This document shows positions 2,662 through 26,794 of a DNA stretch of 46,858 bases, piece after piece. Origin of the DNA: Candidatus Uhrbacteria bacterium (GTDB lineage Bacteria > Patescibacteriota > Patescibacteriia > UBA9934 > GWF2-40-263); contig JACQWJ010000025.1 of NCBI GenBank assembly GCA_016209325.1, positions 1 through 46,858 of the forward strand, written 5' to 3'. A program made the position numbers and the translations under genes. Numbering within the stretch: position 1 is the stretch's first letter; every line of letters starts with the position of its first letter. The notes beneath the pieces are model-generated. The model searched no databases. It was not told the origin of the DNA and was given only the letters and a program-made list of their open reading frames with translations.

Positions 2662-2677
2662 ACGAAGTTATGAAATC

Positions 2678-2811
2678 GGCGGCAACCCCCTGTAAGTCCC
2701 CCTTGGGAAGGGGGACACGCGTTTCTATTCCTGGTTCCCCTCCTTACCAAGGAGGGGCTAGGGGAGGTTGCCGGTGTTCTTGCTGAGGGGAGGTTAGGAG
2801 GGGTTGCCGCC
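2678..2811. repeat. composite GC-rich palindromic repeat bounded by GGCGGCAACCCC / GGGGTTGCCGCC
   Basis: Terminal inverted repeats at 2678-2690 and 2800-2811; internal hairpins GTCCCCCTTgggAAGGGGGAC (2697-2717) and CCCCTCCTTaccAAGGAGGGG (2737-2757). Confidence 0.85.
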
Positions 2812-19548: not shown

Positions 19549-19648
19549 ACCTCTTTTCGGGACCGTGTTACGATTTGCGTACAATTACCCTGATCCCACC
19601 CCCTAGAGACCTGGTCTTTTGGGGACGTTGCGTTTTCATGGATATGTT

Positions 19649-21787
19649 ATGCCTTTCCAGCTTACATCCGACTACCAGCCTGCCGGAGACCAGCCCAAGG
19701 CCATTCGGGAATTGACTGAAGGGCTTCAGGCCGGCGCGCGGCACCAGACCCTGCTTGGCGTGACCGGGTCGGGCAAGACCTTCACCATGGCGAACGTGAT
19801 TCAGCATATCCAGCGACCCACGCTCGTGATCGCGCACAACAAGACGCTCGCTGCCCAGCTGTGTAACGAGTTTCGGGAATTCTTTCCCCACAACGCGGTT
19901 GAGTACTTCGTCAGCTATTACGACTACTACCAGCCCGAGGCCTACCTGCCGCGCACGGACACCTACATTGAAAAGGAGGCCATGATCAACCAGGAGATCG
20001 ATCGGCTGCGCCACGCCGCCACTCAGGCGCTCCTGTCCCGCGAGGACGTCATCATCGTCTCTTCCGTTTCCTGCATCTACGGCTTGGGCTCTCCGAAAGA
20101 ATACGAGGCAACCGTGCTTCATTTGACCGTCGGGGACGCCGGCGTCACGCGCGAGGAAGTCCTCCACCGGCTGGTCGACATGCAGTTCGAGCGCACCACG
20201 GCCGACGTGGAGCGCGGCCATTTCCGCGCCCGCGGCGACGTGATCGAGGTCATGCCCGTCAACGAGGAGCGGCTGTACCGCATTCAGTTCGACGGCGGCC
20301 GGATCGGCGGCATCCAGCTTCTGGACGGGGTTTCGCGTCGGGAATGGGAACGCCCCCGCGACGTCTGGATCTTTCCGGCCAAGCATTACGTGGTCTCGCC
20401 ACTTCTGAAGGATCAGGCGCTCCGCAACATCGAGCGGGAGCTCGGGGAGCAGCTGGCGCAGTTCGACGCCGAGGGGAAGCTCCTTGAGGCCGAGCGCCTG
20501 AAGCGCCGTACGCGCTACGACCTCGAGATGATCCGCGAGGTGGGTTCCTGCAACGGCATCGAGAACTATTCGCGCCACTTCGACGGCCGCGCGATGGGCG
20601 ATCCGCCGTTCACGCTTCTCGACTACTTTCCGAAGGATTTCGTCGCCATGATCGACGAGTCGCATGTGACGATTCCGCAGGTCGGCGGCATGTACGAGGG
20701 GGACCAGGCGCGCAAGCGGACGCTGGTCGAGCACGGGTTCCGCCTGCCGTCCGCCCGTGACAACCGCCCGCTTACCTTCGCCGAGTTTGAGGCGCGCGTC
20801 GGCCGCGTGATTTTCACGAGCGCCACCCCGGGCCCGTATGAGCGCGCGAAGAGTTCGCGTGTCGTCGAGCAGAACATCCGCCCCACGGGCCTGGTCGATC
20901 CGGAAATCGACGTGCGCCCCGTGACTCCCGGCAAACCCCCTCTTGGCTCCCCCTTGATAAGGGGGGGAAACGCGATTTCCCCCCTGCCCGAGGGGGGGCA
21001 AGGGGGGGTGGGAGCCTGGGGTCAAGTCGACGACCTGATCGGCGAGATCAAGGACCGCGTCGCGAGGAACGAGCGGACCCTCGTGACGACGCTCACGAAG
21101 AAGATGGCCGAGGACCTGTCCGAGTTCCTGCGCGAGCAGGGCGTGAAGGTCCAGAACCTCCATTCGGACGTCGAAACCCTCGACCGCAGCACCAATCTGA
21201 CCGAGTTCCGCAAGGGAACCTACGACGTCCTCGTCGGCGTAAACCTGCTGCGCGAAGGTTTGGACCTGCCGGAAGTCACCTTGGTCGCCATTCTCGACGC
21301 GGACAAGGAAGGGTTCCTGCGCTCCGAGACGTCGCTCATCCAGACCATCGGCCGCGCGGCGCGCAACGTCCTCGGCCGGGTCATCCTGTACGCCGACAAC
21401 GTGACGGGGTCGCTGGAGCGCGCGTTACGCGAAACCAACCGTCGTCGCGAGATCCAGCTCGCCTACAACAAGGAACACGGCATCACGCCGAAGACCGTCG
21501 AGAAGAAAATCAGCGACATTCGCGATATGTTCGGCGGGCAAGGGGAATCGACGACCGAACAGATTCTCAAACTCGAGCTCACTGCGGACACGCGCGAGAT
21601 CGAGGAGGTCATCCGGTCCAAGGAATACGACATGAAGGAGGCGGCACGGCATCTCGACTTCGAGACCGCCGCCATCCTGCGCGACGAGATCGCGCTCCTG
21701 CAAAAAGAGTTGGATCAGAAGACGAAAAAATCCACGGTGCCGAAGAAGCGGAAGAAAGACGTACCTTCGGATTCATTGGATGCATGA
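19649..21787 (+). CDS. uvrB: UvrABC system protein B
   Basis: MPFQLTSDYQPAGDQPKAIRELTEGL, GVTGSGKTFTMANVI, YFVSYYDYYQPEAYLPRTDTYIEKE, VNLLREGLDLPEVTLVAILDADKEGFLRS, C-terminal UVR motif. Start refined to ATG 19649. Confidence 0.97.
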   Translation: MPFQLTSDYQPAGDQPKAIRELTEGLQAGARHQTLLGVTGSGKTFTMANVIQHIQRPTLVIAHNKTLAAQLCNEFREFFPHNAVEYFVSYYDYYQPEAYLPRTDTYIEKEAMINQEIDRLRHAATQALLSREDVIIVSSVSCIYGLGSPKEYEATVLHLTVGDAGVTREEVLHRLVDMQFERTTADVERGHFRARGDVIEVMPVNEERLYRIQFDGGRIGGIQLLDGVSRREWERPRDVWIFPAKHYVVSPLLKDQALRNIERELGEQLAQFDAEGKLLEAERLKRRTRYDLEMIREVGSCNGIENYSRHFDGRAMGDPPFTLLDYFPKDFVAMIDESHVTIPQVGGMYEGDQARKRTLVEHGFRLPSARDNRPLTFAEFEARVGRVIFTSATPGPYERAKSSRVVEQNIRPTGLVDPEIDVRPVTPGKPPLGSPLIRGGNAISPLPEGGQGGVGAWGQVDDLIGEIKDRVARNERTLVTTLTKKMAEDLSEFLREQGVKVQNLHSDVETLDRSTNLTEFRKGTYDVLVGVNLLREGLDLPEVTLVAILDADKEGFLRSETSLIQTIGRAARNVLGRVILYADNVTGSLERALRETNRRREIQLAYNKEHGITPKTVEKKISDIRDMFGGQGESTTEQILKLELTADTREIEEVIRSKEYDMKEAARHLDFETAAILRDEIALLQKELDQKTKKSTVPKKRKKDVPSDSLDA
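20921..21019 (+). repeat. 99-nt in-frame GC-rich palindromic repeat insertion within uvrB
   Basis: 33 codons (VTPGKPPLGSPLIRGGNAISPLPEGGQGGVGAW) between the conserved ...EIDVRP and GQVDDLIGEI; contains CCCCCTTgatAAGGGGG and CCCCCC...GGGGGG palindromes. Confidence 0.85.
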
Positions 21788-21794
21788 TGTTCCT

Positions 21795-21923
21795 TGAGAC
21801 TGTAGAAAAATGAAAAACATGGGGCTCTTTTATCACTTTTGACTTTTTCACTGCGCAAATACGGCCTTGTATTCTGTTGATTCCGCAGAATGTCATTTCG
21901 AAAAATATTTTTCTACAGTCTCA
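21795..21923. mobile_element. 129-bp MITE-like element with 17-bp perfect terminal inverted repeats
   Basis: TGAGACTGTAGAAAAAT (21795-21811) / ATTTTTCTACAGTCTCA (21907-21923); no coding capacity; no clear TSD seen. Confidence 0.7.
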
Positions 21924-22000
21924 CGGTAAAAATTCACTCCAAACCAAACCCCGCCAATCCCGAGGAAGGTCTGGATGGCGGGGCGGCTGGTCCCGGGATT

Positions 22001-22074
22001 TGGACCTGACGGGATTTGAACCCGTAATTTCCGTTGTCAACGCGGACGAAGTTGCCAGTTACTTCCACAGGCCC
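22001..22074 (-). tRNA. tRNA-like gene, possibly tRNA-Val(GAC), with irregular anticodon arm
   Basis: Minus strand GGGCCTG TG GAAG TAACTGGCAA CTTC ... ACGGG TTCAAAT CCCGT CAGGTCC A: 7-bp acceptor with one G-U, D-arm with GG, perfect T-arm; the anticodon region TCCGCGTTGACAACGGA pairs imperfectly; no encoded CCA. Confidence 0.6.
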
Positions 22075-22240: not shown

Positions 22241-24901
22241 ATGCAAAATAACATCGTTATCAAGGGCGCACGGGAGCACAATTTGAAGAACATCACCCTC
22301 GAGTTGCCCCGGAACAAGCTCATCTGCTTTACCGGCCTCTCCGGCTCGGGGAAGTCGAGTTTGGCGTTCGACACGATTTTCGCCGAGGGACAGCGGCGCT
22401 ACATCGAGTCCTTGTCGGCGTACGCCCGCCAGTTTTTGGGACAGATGGAGAAGCCGGACGTGGACGAGATTGAGGGATTGTCGCCCGCCATCTCGATCGA
22501 CCAGAAGGTGCACTCCGCCAATCCGCGCTCGACTGTGGCCACGATCACGGAGATTTACGACTACCTGCGGGTCCTGTTCGCCCGGGTAGGCAAGCCCCAC
22601 TGCCCGACGTGCAAGCAGGAGATCAAGAAGCTCACGAACGAGGAGATGGTGGATGTGGTCTTGAAAAGGGTTGAAAAGGGACAGGGAGGGAAAGGGGGCG
22701 AGGGAGGAGAAGGTGGATCGAAGAGGAAAAAGAACGAAAGTCCTACGGTAAAGATTTTAGCCCCCGTCGTTCGCGGGCGGAAGGGCGAGTACTATCAGTT
22801 GCTGTACGACCTTTACAACTCCGGCTTCGCCCGCGTGCGCATCGACGGGAAGGAGTACGCTCTGAACGAGCAGATCAAGCTCGGGCGCTACCAACAGCAC
22901 ACGATCGAGGTGGTCGTGGACACGATTCCGGCAAAGAGTCTTCTCCCCCTTACCAATGGGGAGCTAGAGGGGGTTGCCTCCGACACGCGTCAGCGTCTGG
23001 CTGAAGGGCTCGAGACGGCCGTGGAGAAGGGGAATGATGTTGCGATCATCGTCTATCCGGACGGAAGTGAGCAGCCGCTGTCTTCCAAATTCAGCTGCCC
23101 GAACGACGGCTTCTCGTTTCCCGAAATCGAGCCGCGGCTCTTCTCGTTCAACTCGCCCTACGGCGCCTGCCCCGCCTGCCATGGGTTGGGAACAGCGGAC
23201 CTCTTCAGCGAGGACATGTGCCAGACGTGCCAAGGCGACCGGCTGCGTCCAGAAGCGCTGCATGTGTGGCTGCCGGCATGGGACACGCAAGACTCCCTCC
23301 ACGCAGGACCTCCCCTTAACCCCTCCTTGGTAAGGAGGGGAAATACGCCGGGTCTGTCGATCGTCGACCTGTCGTCCATGTCGATCGAGCGCGCTGCCGA
23401 CTACTTCCTGACGGTCGAGATGACCGAGCGTCAGCGGGAGATCGCGGGACCGGCCCTGAAGGAGATCCTGAACCGGCTCCAGTTCATGCTCGACGTCGGG
23501 CTCCACTACCTCACGCTCCGGCGCATGGCCGGCAGCCTGTCGGGGGGCGAGGCGCAGCGCATCCGCCTCGCGTCCCAGGTCGGCTCGCGGCTCGTCGGTG
23601 CCCTGTACGTGCTCGACGAGCCCACGATCGGCCTCCACCAGCGCGACAACGACCGCCTTATCCAGACCTTGACGGAATTGCGCGACTTGGGGAATACAGT
23701 GATCGTGGTCGAGCACGACGAGGACACGATCCGTGCGTCCGACTACATGGTCGAGATCGGTCCCGGTGCCGGCGTTCACGGGGGGCAGGTCGTCGCGGCC
23801 GGTCCGGTGCCGAAGGTATTCGACGCGCCCGGATCGATGACGGGCGCGTACATGCGCGGCGACCGGAAGATTCCCGTGCCAGAAAAGCGGCGCGCCGTCG
23901 GAAGCGACGCGATCAAGGTCCGTGGCGCGTCCGAGAACAACTTGAAGAACGTCGACGTCGATATTCCGCTCCGCCGGTTCGTGTGCGTGACGGGCGTTTC
24001 CGGCTCCGGCAAGTCGACCCTTGCCTACGACACCATGTATAAGGAGCTGTCCCGCCGTCTGTACGGGTCCAAGGCCGTGCCGGGGAAGCACAAGGCGGTC
24101 CTCGGGGCCGAGTACGTCGACAAGGCCATCCTGATCGACCAGTCCCCGATCGGTCGCACGTCCCGCAGCAACCCTGCGACCTACACAGGCGCCTGGGGGC
24201 CCATCCGCGAAATGTTTTCCGCCACGGCCGAAGCGCGCTACCGTGGCTACAAGCCGGGACGCTTCAGCTTCAACGTGCCAGGTGGACGCTGCGAGAACTG
24301 CGAGGGGCACGGGACCATCGCCATCGAGATGCACTTCCTGCCGACCGTGCACGTCACATGCGACGTGTGCAAGGGAAAGCGTTTTGACCGCGAAACGTTA
24401 GAGATCGAGTACAAGGAAAAGAATGTTTTTCAAGTTCTTGAAATGACCGTTGAAGAATCCGCGGCATTCTTCAAAGATATCCCATTTGTGTCTGACAAGA
24501 TGGAGACCCTGAACCGGGTCGGGCTCGGCTATCTCAAGCTCGGCCAGCCGGCTCCCACCCTTTCGGGCGGGGAAGCGCAGCGCGTGAAGCTTTCGTCGGA
24601 GCTATCCAAGCGTTCCACGGGTCGAACACTCTATTTGCTCGACGAGCCGACGACCGGCCTGCACTTCGCCGACATCGAGCAGCTCCTGAAGGTCCTGCAC
24701 GCGCTCGTTGACCACGGCAATTCCGTCATTGTGATCGAGCACAACTTGGACGTGATCAAGACCGCGGATTGGCTCATCGACCTCGGTCCGGAGGGCGGGG
24801 ACAAGGGCGGGGAGATCGTGTGCGTGGGTACGCCTGAGGACATCGCGCGCAACGCGAAGAGCCATACGGGTCACTACCTCCGACGCATGCTCAAAGCCTG
24901 A
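22241..24901 (+). CDS. uvrA: UvrABC system protein A
   Basis: [112 protein letters not shown]. Confidence 0.97.
22935..22982 (+). repeat. GC-rich palindromic repeat inserted in frame in uvrA (copy 1)
   Basis: CTCCCCCTTACCAATGGGGAGCTAGAGGGGGTTGCCTCCG, encoding [15 protein letters not shown]. Confidence 0.75.
23303..23350 (+). repeat. GC-rich palindromic repeat inserted in frame in uvrA (copy 2)
   Basis: CCTCCCCTTAACCCCTCCTTGGTAAGGAGGGG, encoding [13 protein letters not shown]; its 21-bp core equals the reverse complement of 2737-2757. Confidence 0.8.
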
Positions 24902-25414: not shown

Positions 25415-26794
25415 ATGATTCCACCAGCGATCAAAGTCAAAAATAACGAGCTTCCCGACAACTCCGGGGTTTACTTTTATTACGACGCCGGCGGAACCCT
25501 GCTGTATGTCGGCAAAGCCACTTCGCTTCGGAAGCGGGTCGGGTCCTACTTTTTCAAGGCGCATGACAATCGGATCGCGGACTTGGTCCGCAACATCGTT
25601 TTCATCGACTATATCGAGACGCCGACGGTGATCGAGGCGCTCGTGCTTGAGGCCAATCAGATCAAGGCGCTCCGGCCGAAGTACAACATTCTGCAACGCG
25701 ACGACAAGAGTTTCCTCTATCTCGCGGTCACGAACGACCCGTATCCGAAGCCGCTCCTGATGCGCGGTCTCGACCTGGAGCGTTTGGGCGTCGATCCGTT
25801 CGACCGCACGCTGTCGCCCCGCGCCCGCAAGCTGTTCCTGGCCGTGTTCGGACCCTATACGAGCGGATCTTCGCTCCGTCGCGCGCTCGAGTTCATCCGC
25901 AAGGCGATTCCGTGGAGCACGTGCGATCCACCGGAGGCAACCCCCTCCACCTCCCCCTTCGTAAGGGGGAGAGTTGCCCGTCCCTGCTTCAACGTCCATA
26001 TCCGCCTGTGTCCCGGAGTGTGTGCCGGCAAGATCAGCCGGGAGGACTACCGTAAGATCATTCGTCAGCTCATTCTCTTTTTTGAGGGCAAGAAGGCACA
26101 ACTCGTGCGTCAGATGAAAAAAGAGATGGAAGCTGCGTCCAAAGCCCAGCGGTTTGAAGAGGCCAGCCGCTTGCGCAACACCATCTTCGCCCTGGAGCAC
26201 ATCCAGGACGTGGCCCTCGTCATGCGCGACGATGTCGAGCTGCCCTTCAGTCGTACGCCGGAGGAAGGGATCGATTTGAATGGCCGCATTGAAGCGTATG
26301 ACATCAGTAATATTTCCGGAACGTCCGCCGTCGGTTCGATGGTTGTCTTCCAAGAGGGAAAGCCTGCCAAGGACCAATATCGAAAATTCAAAATCAAGAC
26401 CGTCCGCGGCTCCGATGACTTTGCGATGATGGAAGAAGTCATGCGCCGCCGCCTGGCGCGTGCGAAGCATTTTCCAAATGCCTGGCCGCTTCCGGTCCTC
26501 ATGGTCATCGACGGCGGGGAAGGGCAGGTCAGTCACGTCCAGGAAGTTTTGAATGAGATGGAAATCAAACTTCCGATCGTCGGCCTAGCAAAGGGGTTCG
26601 ACCGCAAGCAGGACCGCCTGGTCTTCGACCGGACCGACCCGGAACTCGTCCGCGTCGCCACCCGCGGCAAGGAGCTGTTCCAGCAGGCCCGCGACGAGGC
26701 GCACCGCTTCGCGGTCGCGTACCATCGCAAGGTGCGAGCCAAGGCATTTCTTCCAAAACACAAAAAGAGATATCATGGAGTGAATCCTCTATGA
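25415..26794 (+). CDS. uvrC: UvrABC system protein C
   Basis: LPDNSGVYFYYDAGGTLLYVGKATSLRKRVGSYF (GIY-YIG), RPCFNVHIRLCPGVCAG, FEEASRLRNTI (UVR), MEEVMRRRLAR, PVLMVIDGGEGQV. Confidence 0.95.
   Translation: MIPPAIKVKNNELPDNSGVYFYYDAGGTLLYVGKATSLRKRVGSYFFKAHDNRIADLVRNIVFIDYIETPTVIEALVLEANQIKALRPKYNILQRDDKSFLYLAVTNDPYPKPLLMRGLDLERLGVDPFDRTLSPRARKLFLAVFGPYTSGSSLRRALEFIRKAIPWSTCDPPEATPSTSPFVRGRVARPCFNVHIRLCPGVCAGKISREDYRKIIRQLILFFEGKKAQLVRQMKKEMEAASKAQRFEEASRLRNTIFALEHIQDVALVMRDDVELPFSRTPEEGIDLNGRIEAYDISNISGTSAVGSMVVFQEGKPAKDQYRKFKIKTVRGSDDFAMMEEVMRRRLARAKHFPNAWPLPVLMVIDGGEGQVSHVQEVLNEMEIKLPIVGLAKGFDRKQDRLVFDRTDPELVRVATRGKELFQQARDEAHRFAVAYHRKVRAKAFLPKHKKRYHGVNPL
25932..25980 (+). repeat. GC-rich palindromic repeat inserted in frame in uvrC
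   Basis: CGGAGGCAACCCCCTCCACCTCCCCCTTCGTAAGGGGGAGAGTTGCCCG between the conserved Cys and RPC of the zinc-ligand-like segment. Confidence 0.8.

Follow-up and report, generated by a model that had tools for sequence, protein, structure and literature searches.

The window, i.e. the whole stretch of 46,858 nucleotides that was analysed, carries the genes of the three excinuclease subunits UvrB, UvrA and UvrC on its forward strand, and each of them contains at least one in-frame copy of a repeat that is dispersed over this Candidatus Uhrbacteria genome (Table 1). Between uvrB and uvrA lies a tRNA-Ser gene on the opposite strand, adjoined by a short inverted repeat. An ECF sigma factor frame is followed by a very long frame and by an AmmeMemoSam_B/MEMO1-like frame.

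Table 1. Positions of the uvr genes, the repeat copies and neighbouring features in the window.
Feature	Position	Strand	Remarks
Full-length intergenic repeat copy	2677..2776	+	A second partial right end follows, to about 2812
uvrB	19619..21787	+	722 aa; helicase motifs intact
Repeat in uvrB	20929..21013	+	85 nt; near-full-length inverted doublet; in frame
Inverted repeat	21792-21811 / 21907-21926		20 nt; adjoins tRNA-Ser gene
tRNA-Ser (TGA) gene	22001-22074	-	Strand opposite to uvrB and uvrA
uvrA	22241..24901	+	886 aa; both Walker A and signature motifs intact
G/A-rich low-complexity insert in third UvrA loop	22675..22735 (about)	+	Not the repeat of the window
Repeat copy in uvrA	22935..22985	-	Opposite orientation; loop after IEVVVDTI; in frame
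Repeat fragment (half-unit) in uvrA	23301..23345	-	Upstream of SIVDLS; in frame
uvrC	25415..26794	+	459 aa; carries the repeat in frame; NCBIfam uvrC match
Repeat copy in uvrC	25932..25980	+	49 nt; head GGAGGCAACCCCCT, hairpin CTCCCCCTTCGTAAGGGGGAG and closing arm GTTGCC
ECF sigma factor frame	27162-27884
Long frame	27897-33185	+	1762 aa; no NCBIfam match
AmmeMemoSam_B / MEMO1-like frame	33188-35062		After the 1762-aa frame

In-frame repeats in the three excinuclease subunits

The preliminary description of this DNA had placed a repeat in uvrC between a cysteine and an RPC motif, and it is indeed found there. The DNA of this copy reads CGGAGGCAACCCCCTCCACCTCCCCCTTCGTAAGGGGGAGAGTTGCCCG and is translated in context as WSTC-DPPEATPSTSPFVRGRVA-RPCFN, which leaves the frame intact. 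The resulting peptide, PEATPSTSPFVRGRVA, stands between the first cysteine (WSTC) and RPC and separates cysteines 1 and 2 of the four-cysteine motif, the remaining ones following as C-x7-C-x3-C. We take these four cysteines to be the ligands of an iron-sulfur cluster; no structure covering this region of UvrC was present among the solved-structure matches. UvrC is described as containing an iron-sulfur cluster (Silva 2020, as cited in PMC11138216).

With 359 bits against a cut-off of 285 for the NCBIfam uvrC profile, the frame belongs to the UvrC family. It exhibits the four-cysteine motif, and its GIY-YIG and RNase-H-like nuclease motifs are both intact. The loop between cysteines 1 and 2 comprises 18 residues, compared with 4-9 in 26 of 30 relatives (median 9); three other relatives exhibit loops of 15, 30 and 35 residues, the sequence of which differs from the repeat of the window. 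The net gain of UvrC is 9 residues, compared with a unit of 43-49 nt. Since the insert lengths are not those expected if a single unit had simply been added, one has to suppose that the inserts were trimmed afterwards. Taken by itself, the uvrC copy folds only moderately (z = -2.8). UvrC is about 440-475 residues long in most relatives, and the usual C-terminal helix-hairpin-helix (HhH) seems to be absent, also from the uvrC of the window. In the relative G027 (L355), a scaffold gap (NN) is located near the loop between cysteines 1 and 2, and a repeat at this place may have broken the assembly. A truly split uvrC was considered for G027 and G023 and rejected, the former having this scaffold gap and the latter a small internal defect.

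In alignments to solved structures, the UvrB insert lies in an inter-domain linker, between the counterparts of residues V427 and G429 of 9gy7 (UvrB). An example of the predicted peptides that span the inserts of UvrB and UvrC is GGNAISPLPEGGQGGVGAWGQVDDLIGEIK. In UvrA, a third long insert consists of low-complexity DNA and is no copy of the repeat; relatives have other repeats in this loop. The catalytic motifs and the reading frames of UvrA, UvrB and UvrC are intact in the window, and the claim that all three subunits are invaded holds, with copies in frame twice in uvrA and also in uvrB and uvrC.

The repeats could have been mis-joined into the uvr genes during metagenome assembly, since the 37 contigs of the genome amount to 89% completeness and some of them do break at repeats (contig C29, for example, ends within one). 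Such an artefact is nevertheless extremely unlikely: it would require the assembly to have joined repeats in frame four times independently, in three genes and each time with the flanks intact, the copies are diverged rather than identical, and many independent assemblies exhibit similar in-frame inserts.

The repeat family and its distribution

The full unit of about 100 nt is made of two inverted half-units, each comprising a head, GGCAACCC, and a GC-rich hairpin. The genome harbours 11 long copies, in which two inner hairpins are enclosed by the ends GGCAACC...GGTTGCC. The fold of the full-length unit is a branched hairpin (z = -5.6 compared with shuffled sequences). In all 11 units, the left half is similar to the reverse complement of the right half (z of 3.4-6.4); the unit can thus be described as an inverted doublet of a head-plus-hairpin half-unit, which is REPIN-like. 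Solitary half-units also exist, in uvrC and in other Uhrbacteria. Some short units are devoid of stop codons in all six frames, and being both GC-rich and stop-poor, the repeat is readable in several frames.

The family combines traits of several known classes. Like REPs, it consists of many dispersed copies of a short hairpin (about 32 places); like REPINs, it has inverted half-units that form one hairpin; like MITEs, it has terminal inverted repeats (GGCAACC...GGTTGCC); and like RPEs, it is found as a palindromic repeat in frame within conserved protein genes (uvrA, uvrB, uvrC, queA and mnmA here, and tgt, lgt, comF and uvrA elsewhere). The terminal GTAG/CGTC tetranucleotide of the REP superfamily is absent beside the hairpin, where the head GGCAACCC is conserved. 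Inspection of eight full-length intergenic copies, the exact ends of which are uncertain, revealed no evident target-site duplication, and a search for known structured RNAs in Rfam gave no match on the repeats, its only match being a tRNA.

This architecture of inverted doublets and singlets (halves similar at z 3.4-6.4) would fit a REPIN in the strict sense, i.e. a repeat whose movement depends on a REP-associated tyrosine transposase (RAYT) acting in trans, and the genome does contain a RAYT-like gene (C4:19721). This gene carries a different palindrome, CGACCATCCCT, and the hairpin is absent from 20 sampled Y1 transposase regions. No half-units flank a RAYT gene in these 20 regions, which come from this incomplete genome and related ones, and another genome, G018, has repeat matches and no Y1 transposase match. 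We consider mobilisation by a RAYT rather unlikely; it would be compatible with the tolerance of particular loops, which is discussed below. The palindrome of the RAYT-like gene (L401, G000:C4:18200-21500, around 1696-2079), AGGGATGGTCG / CGACCATCCCT, lies partly within the frame and may represent a second family of repeats in this genome. Two IS200-like transposase frames (G000:C11:18842-19042 and C24:1-189) are cut at contig ends; they probably belong to an insertion sequence present in multiple copies, at which the assembly broke.

A census of the whole 766-kb genome was made with a covariance model and a search for the hairpin pattern. The core pattern matched 34+36 times (70), compared with 3+2 times (5) for a reversed-pattern control. 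The repeat occupies about 32 places, most of them intergenic. About six copies are intragenic: two in uvrA and one each in uvrB, uvrC, queA (C7:23883-23979) and mnmA (C32:46715), and in the latter two genes the Pfam matches resume on either side of the repeat. The census may miss degenerate copies; E was as high as 0.5 for the uvrA copy at 22935.

The uvr coding sequence, 6.2 kb in total, accounts for four of the about six intragenic copies, and these four lie within 5 kb. The probability of at least 4/6 intragenic copies falling in uvr is 1e-7, and that of at least 4/33 places is 1.5e-4, both values being post hoc and uncorrected. The preliminary description had allowed for chance arising from a high repeat density, and had proposed to compare the density within coding sequences genome-wide with that in the cluster. 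In this genome, the only intragenic copies outside uvr are those of queA and mnmA, and chance does not account for about 32 places in 766 kb of which about six are intragenic and four are in uvr. The presence of the repeat in uvrABC is real and goes beyond chance.

A search of 84,980 species genomes for the exact core pattern yielded 27 stretches. Almost all of them belong to records of Candidatus Uhrbacteria, the others being named Patescibacteria or plain bacterium. Spread by phages was rejected, as there was no exact core match among 2.9 million viral contigs. In other assemblies, the family is present in frame in uvrA, tgt, lgt, comF, a glycosyltransferase gene, a DUF4015 protein, a TIGR00375 protein and an rRNA methyltransferase-like frame. 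The uvrA of the assembly SI037_bin110 (L307) carries the same family through an independent insertion. The queA of this genome (G000:C7:23883-23979) and the tgt of another assembly (L317:6990-7034) are two steps of the queuosine pathway with in-frame repeats. In the sister genome G001, the covariance model gave no match at E 0.01, and its uvr genes, spread over three contigs, have no repeat insert.

Use of the same loops in related genomes

We compared 22 uvr clusters, with loop positions given as core column numbers and the genome of the window named G000. Inserts of at least 8 residues are observed in UvrA, UvrB and UvrC of G000, G011 and G022, and short inserts in all three subunits of G004. 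G012 exhibits inserts in UvrA and UvrC, its uvrB being cut by a contig end. Columns 148, 221 and 325 of UvrA and column 429 of UvrB are each re-used by at least three genomes, and UvrB 167 and UvrC 181 also receive inserts in relatives. The inserted DNA differs from one genome to another: palindromes of the type GGGACTAAAGTCCC in G011, palindromes of the type CGGCGCTCGG in G012 and GGGAACA tandem repeats in G022. Sampling of 36-60 kb in each of G003, G011 and G022 showed that their inserts recur at other places of their own genomes. In the uvrA of G023 (L354), loop 148 contains a strongly palindromic insert (z about -6), which starts with TCATTGCGAGCG and has the core GAAGCAATCTC; this type of palindrome is presumably of a kind found in many bacterial genomes.

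Relatives carry unrelated repeats in these same loops, which therefore seem to serve as landing sites again and again and not by accident in a single genome. The main evidence is the difference in inserted DNA at re-used loops, which suggests that the loops and not the repeat define the sites. The same evidence bears on a sequence-directed or regional hotspot, in which the uvr cluster would draw insertions through its DNA sequence or structure; a regional hotspot was among the causes offered in the preliminary description. Four copies inside 5 kb, and the independent insertion of the same family in the uvrA of SI037_bin110 (L307), would fit such a hotspot. However, the same protein loops take unrelated repeats in relatives, simple tandem ones included, repeat inserts are absent from the uvr genes of G001, which are distributed over three contigs, and neither a shared target sequence nor a target duplication was found. 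A hotspot in general is very unlikely, and a purely regional one is unlikely in view of G001 and of the other repeat families at the same loops.

Inserts were also counted in control proteins. GyrA and ClpB, described as tight proteins, exhibit no inserts, TopA exhibits few, and ValS several, some of similar peptides such as SVPPLPEGGPGGV. In four repeat-rich genomes, which were picked for their uvr inserts, 27 inserts were counted in 7,384 residues of Uvr proteins versus 8 in 12,616 residues of controls (p = 1.5e-6). In the other 18 genomes, no difference is observed (0.47 versus 0.50 inserts per 1000 residues), and a general enrichment of uvr relative to the controls, affecting every genome, was rejected, since none is seen outside the four repeat-rich ones. 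The control comparison indicates that the uvr genes are not a unique target but are rather among the tolerant ones.

The inserts could also have been kept by selection for weakened repair, if insertions in uvr lowered excision repair and thereby produced mutators or spared hairpin DNA. In several phyla, a conspicuous share of the genes tagged by REPs are repair genes (PMC3733652), uvrABC holds four of the about six intragenic copies here, and the repeat-rich G000, G011 and G022 have inserts in all three subunits. Nevertheless, the three subunits of the window keep their frames and catalytic motifs, the inserts sit in linkers or variable loops, and ValS, queA, tgt, mnmA and lgt carry inserts as well, so this selection seems unlikely. 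A broader version, in which hairpin repeats convergently and selectively invade excision-repair genes across bacterial phyla and weakened UvrABC favours their spread, is quite unlikely. It would rest on the proposal that a partial weakening of UvrABC favours repeats because hairpin or cruciform intermediates are substrates of excision repair. If it were true, repeats would expand as a consequence of the invasion of uvr, which would then be more than a tolerated result of that expansion.

The uvrABC inserts are best explained, with a probability of roughly 0.7, by the tolerance of particular loops combined with an active repeat family. A non-autonomous, hairpin-forming dispersed repeat of Candidatus Uhrbacteria would spread through the genome, probably by transposition, and an intragenic copy would survive only when the frame is kept and the site is a surface loop or a linker. 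UvrA, UvrB and UvrC would each own such loops, which would repeatedly take the repeat family that is currently active in the lineage. The excinuclease subunits would remain functional as a result, each insert adding roughly 8-25 residues, and the insert-bearing Uvr proteins are predicted to be made and active. Of the reasons proposed in the preliminary description, tolerance by the Uvr proteins is supported for particular loops, given that relatives re-use the same ones; tolerance, rather than targeting or benefit, probably explains the pattern.

Comparison with known repeat systems

In 2013, REP repeats located within genes were described as affecting repair genes, including uvrA and uvrB, with striking frequency, and a fortuitous targeting of these was called difficult to believe (PMC3733652). 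A mutator effect was speculated for REPs in the UvrABCD and RecBCD genes, the choice between accident and mutators being left open (PMC3733652). Like the present repeat, these GTAG/CGTC REPs are short palindromes, either single or paired as inverted dimers, which lie within repair genes including uvrA and uvrB, and one uvrA contains two inserts (PMC3733652). They differ from it in their head, which is GGCAACCC here, and in phylum, which is Patescibacteria here. In contrast to the REPs, all three subunits of one cluster are affected here, and the loops are re-used by unrelated repeats in relatives.

With regard to the RPEs of Rickettsia, excinuclease subunit C and tRNA ribosyltransferase-isomerase (QueA) are listed among the genes that carry them (PMC3767692). 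RPE-4/6/7 are palindromes of about 70-190 nt in frame within exposed regions of housekeeping genes (PMC3767692; review PMC10969869). As here, uvrC and queA are both targets, and different RPE groups occur at the same gene. The positions of the Rickettsia inserts are largely inherited, whereas a sister genome without inserts exists here. The two were compared by description, and no sequence relation is claimed, the exact core of the present repeat being found only in Patescibacteria-type records.

REPINs (PMC3116915) likewise consist of inverted half-units that make one large hairpin, plus singlets. In contrast to the present repeat, for which no RAYT link was found, they are extragenic and RAYT-linked. 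MITEs are similarly small and non-coding, with terminal inverted repeats and many copies; they differ from the present repeat, for which neither a target-site duplication nor an autonomous partner was observed. A literature search restricted to open-licence papers returned no report of such elements in Patescibacteria.

REP-type repeats have already been described inside uvr genes of other phyla, so the phenomenon itself is known and the repeat family behind it is new. Also new are the phylum, the presence of inserts in all three subunits and the convergence of different repeats on the same loops. An unrelated repeat family in an unrelated phylum has had the same effect as the REPs of 2013, on the three excinuclease subunits together, and repeats add peptide to core enzymes in the small genomes of Patescibacteria. 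The other repeats found in the same loops of relatives constitute a natural series of replicates, which could separate tolerance, targeting and benefit.
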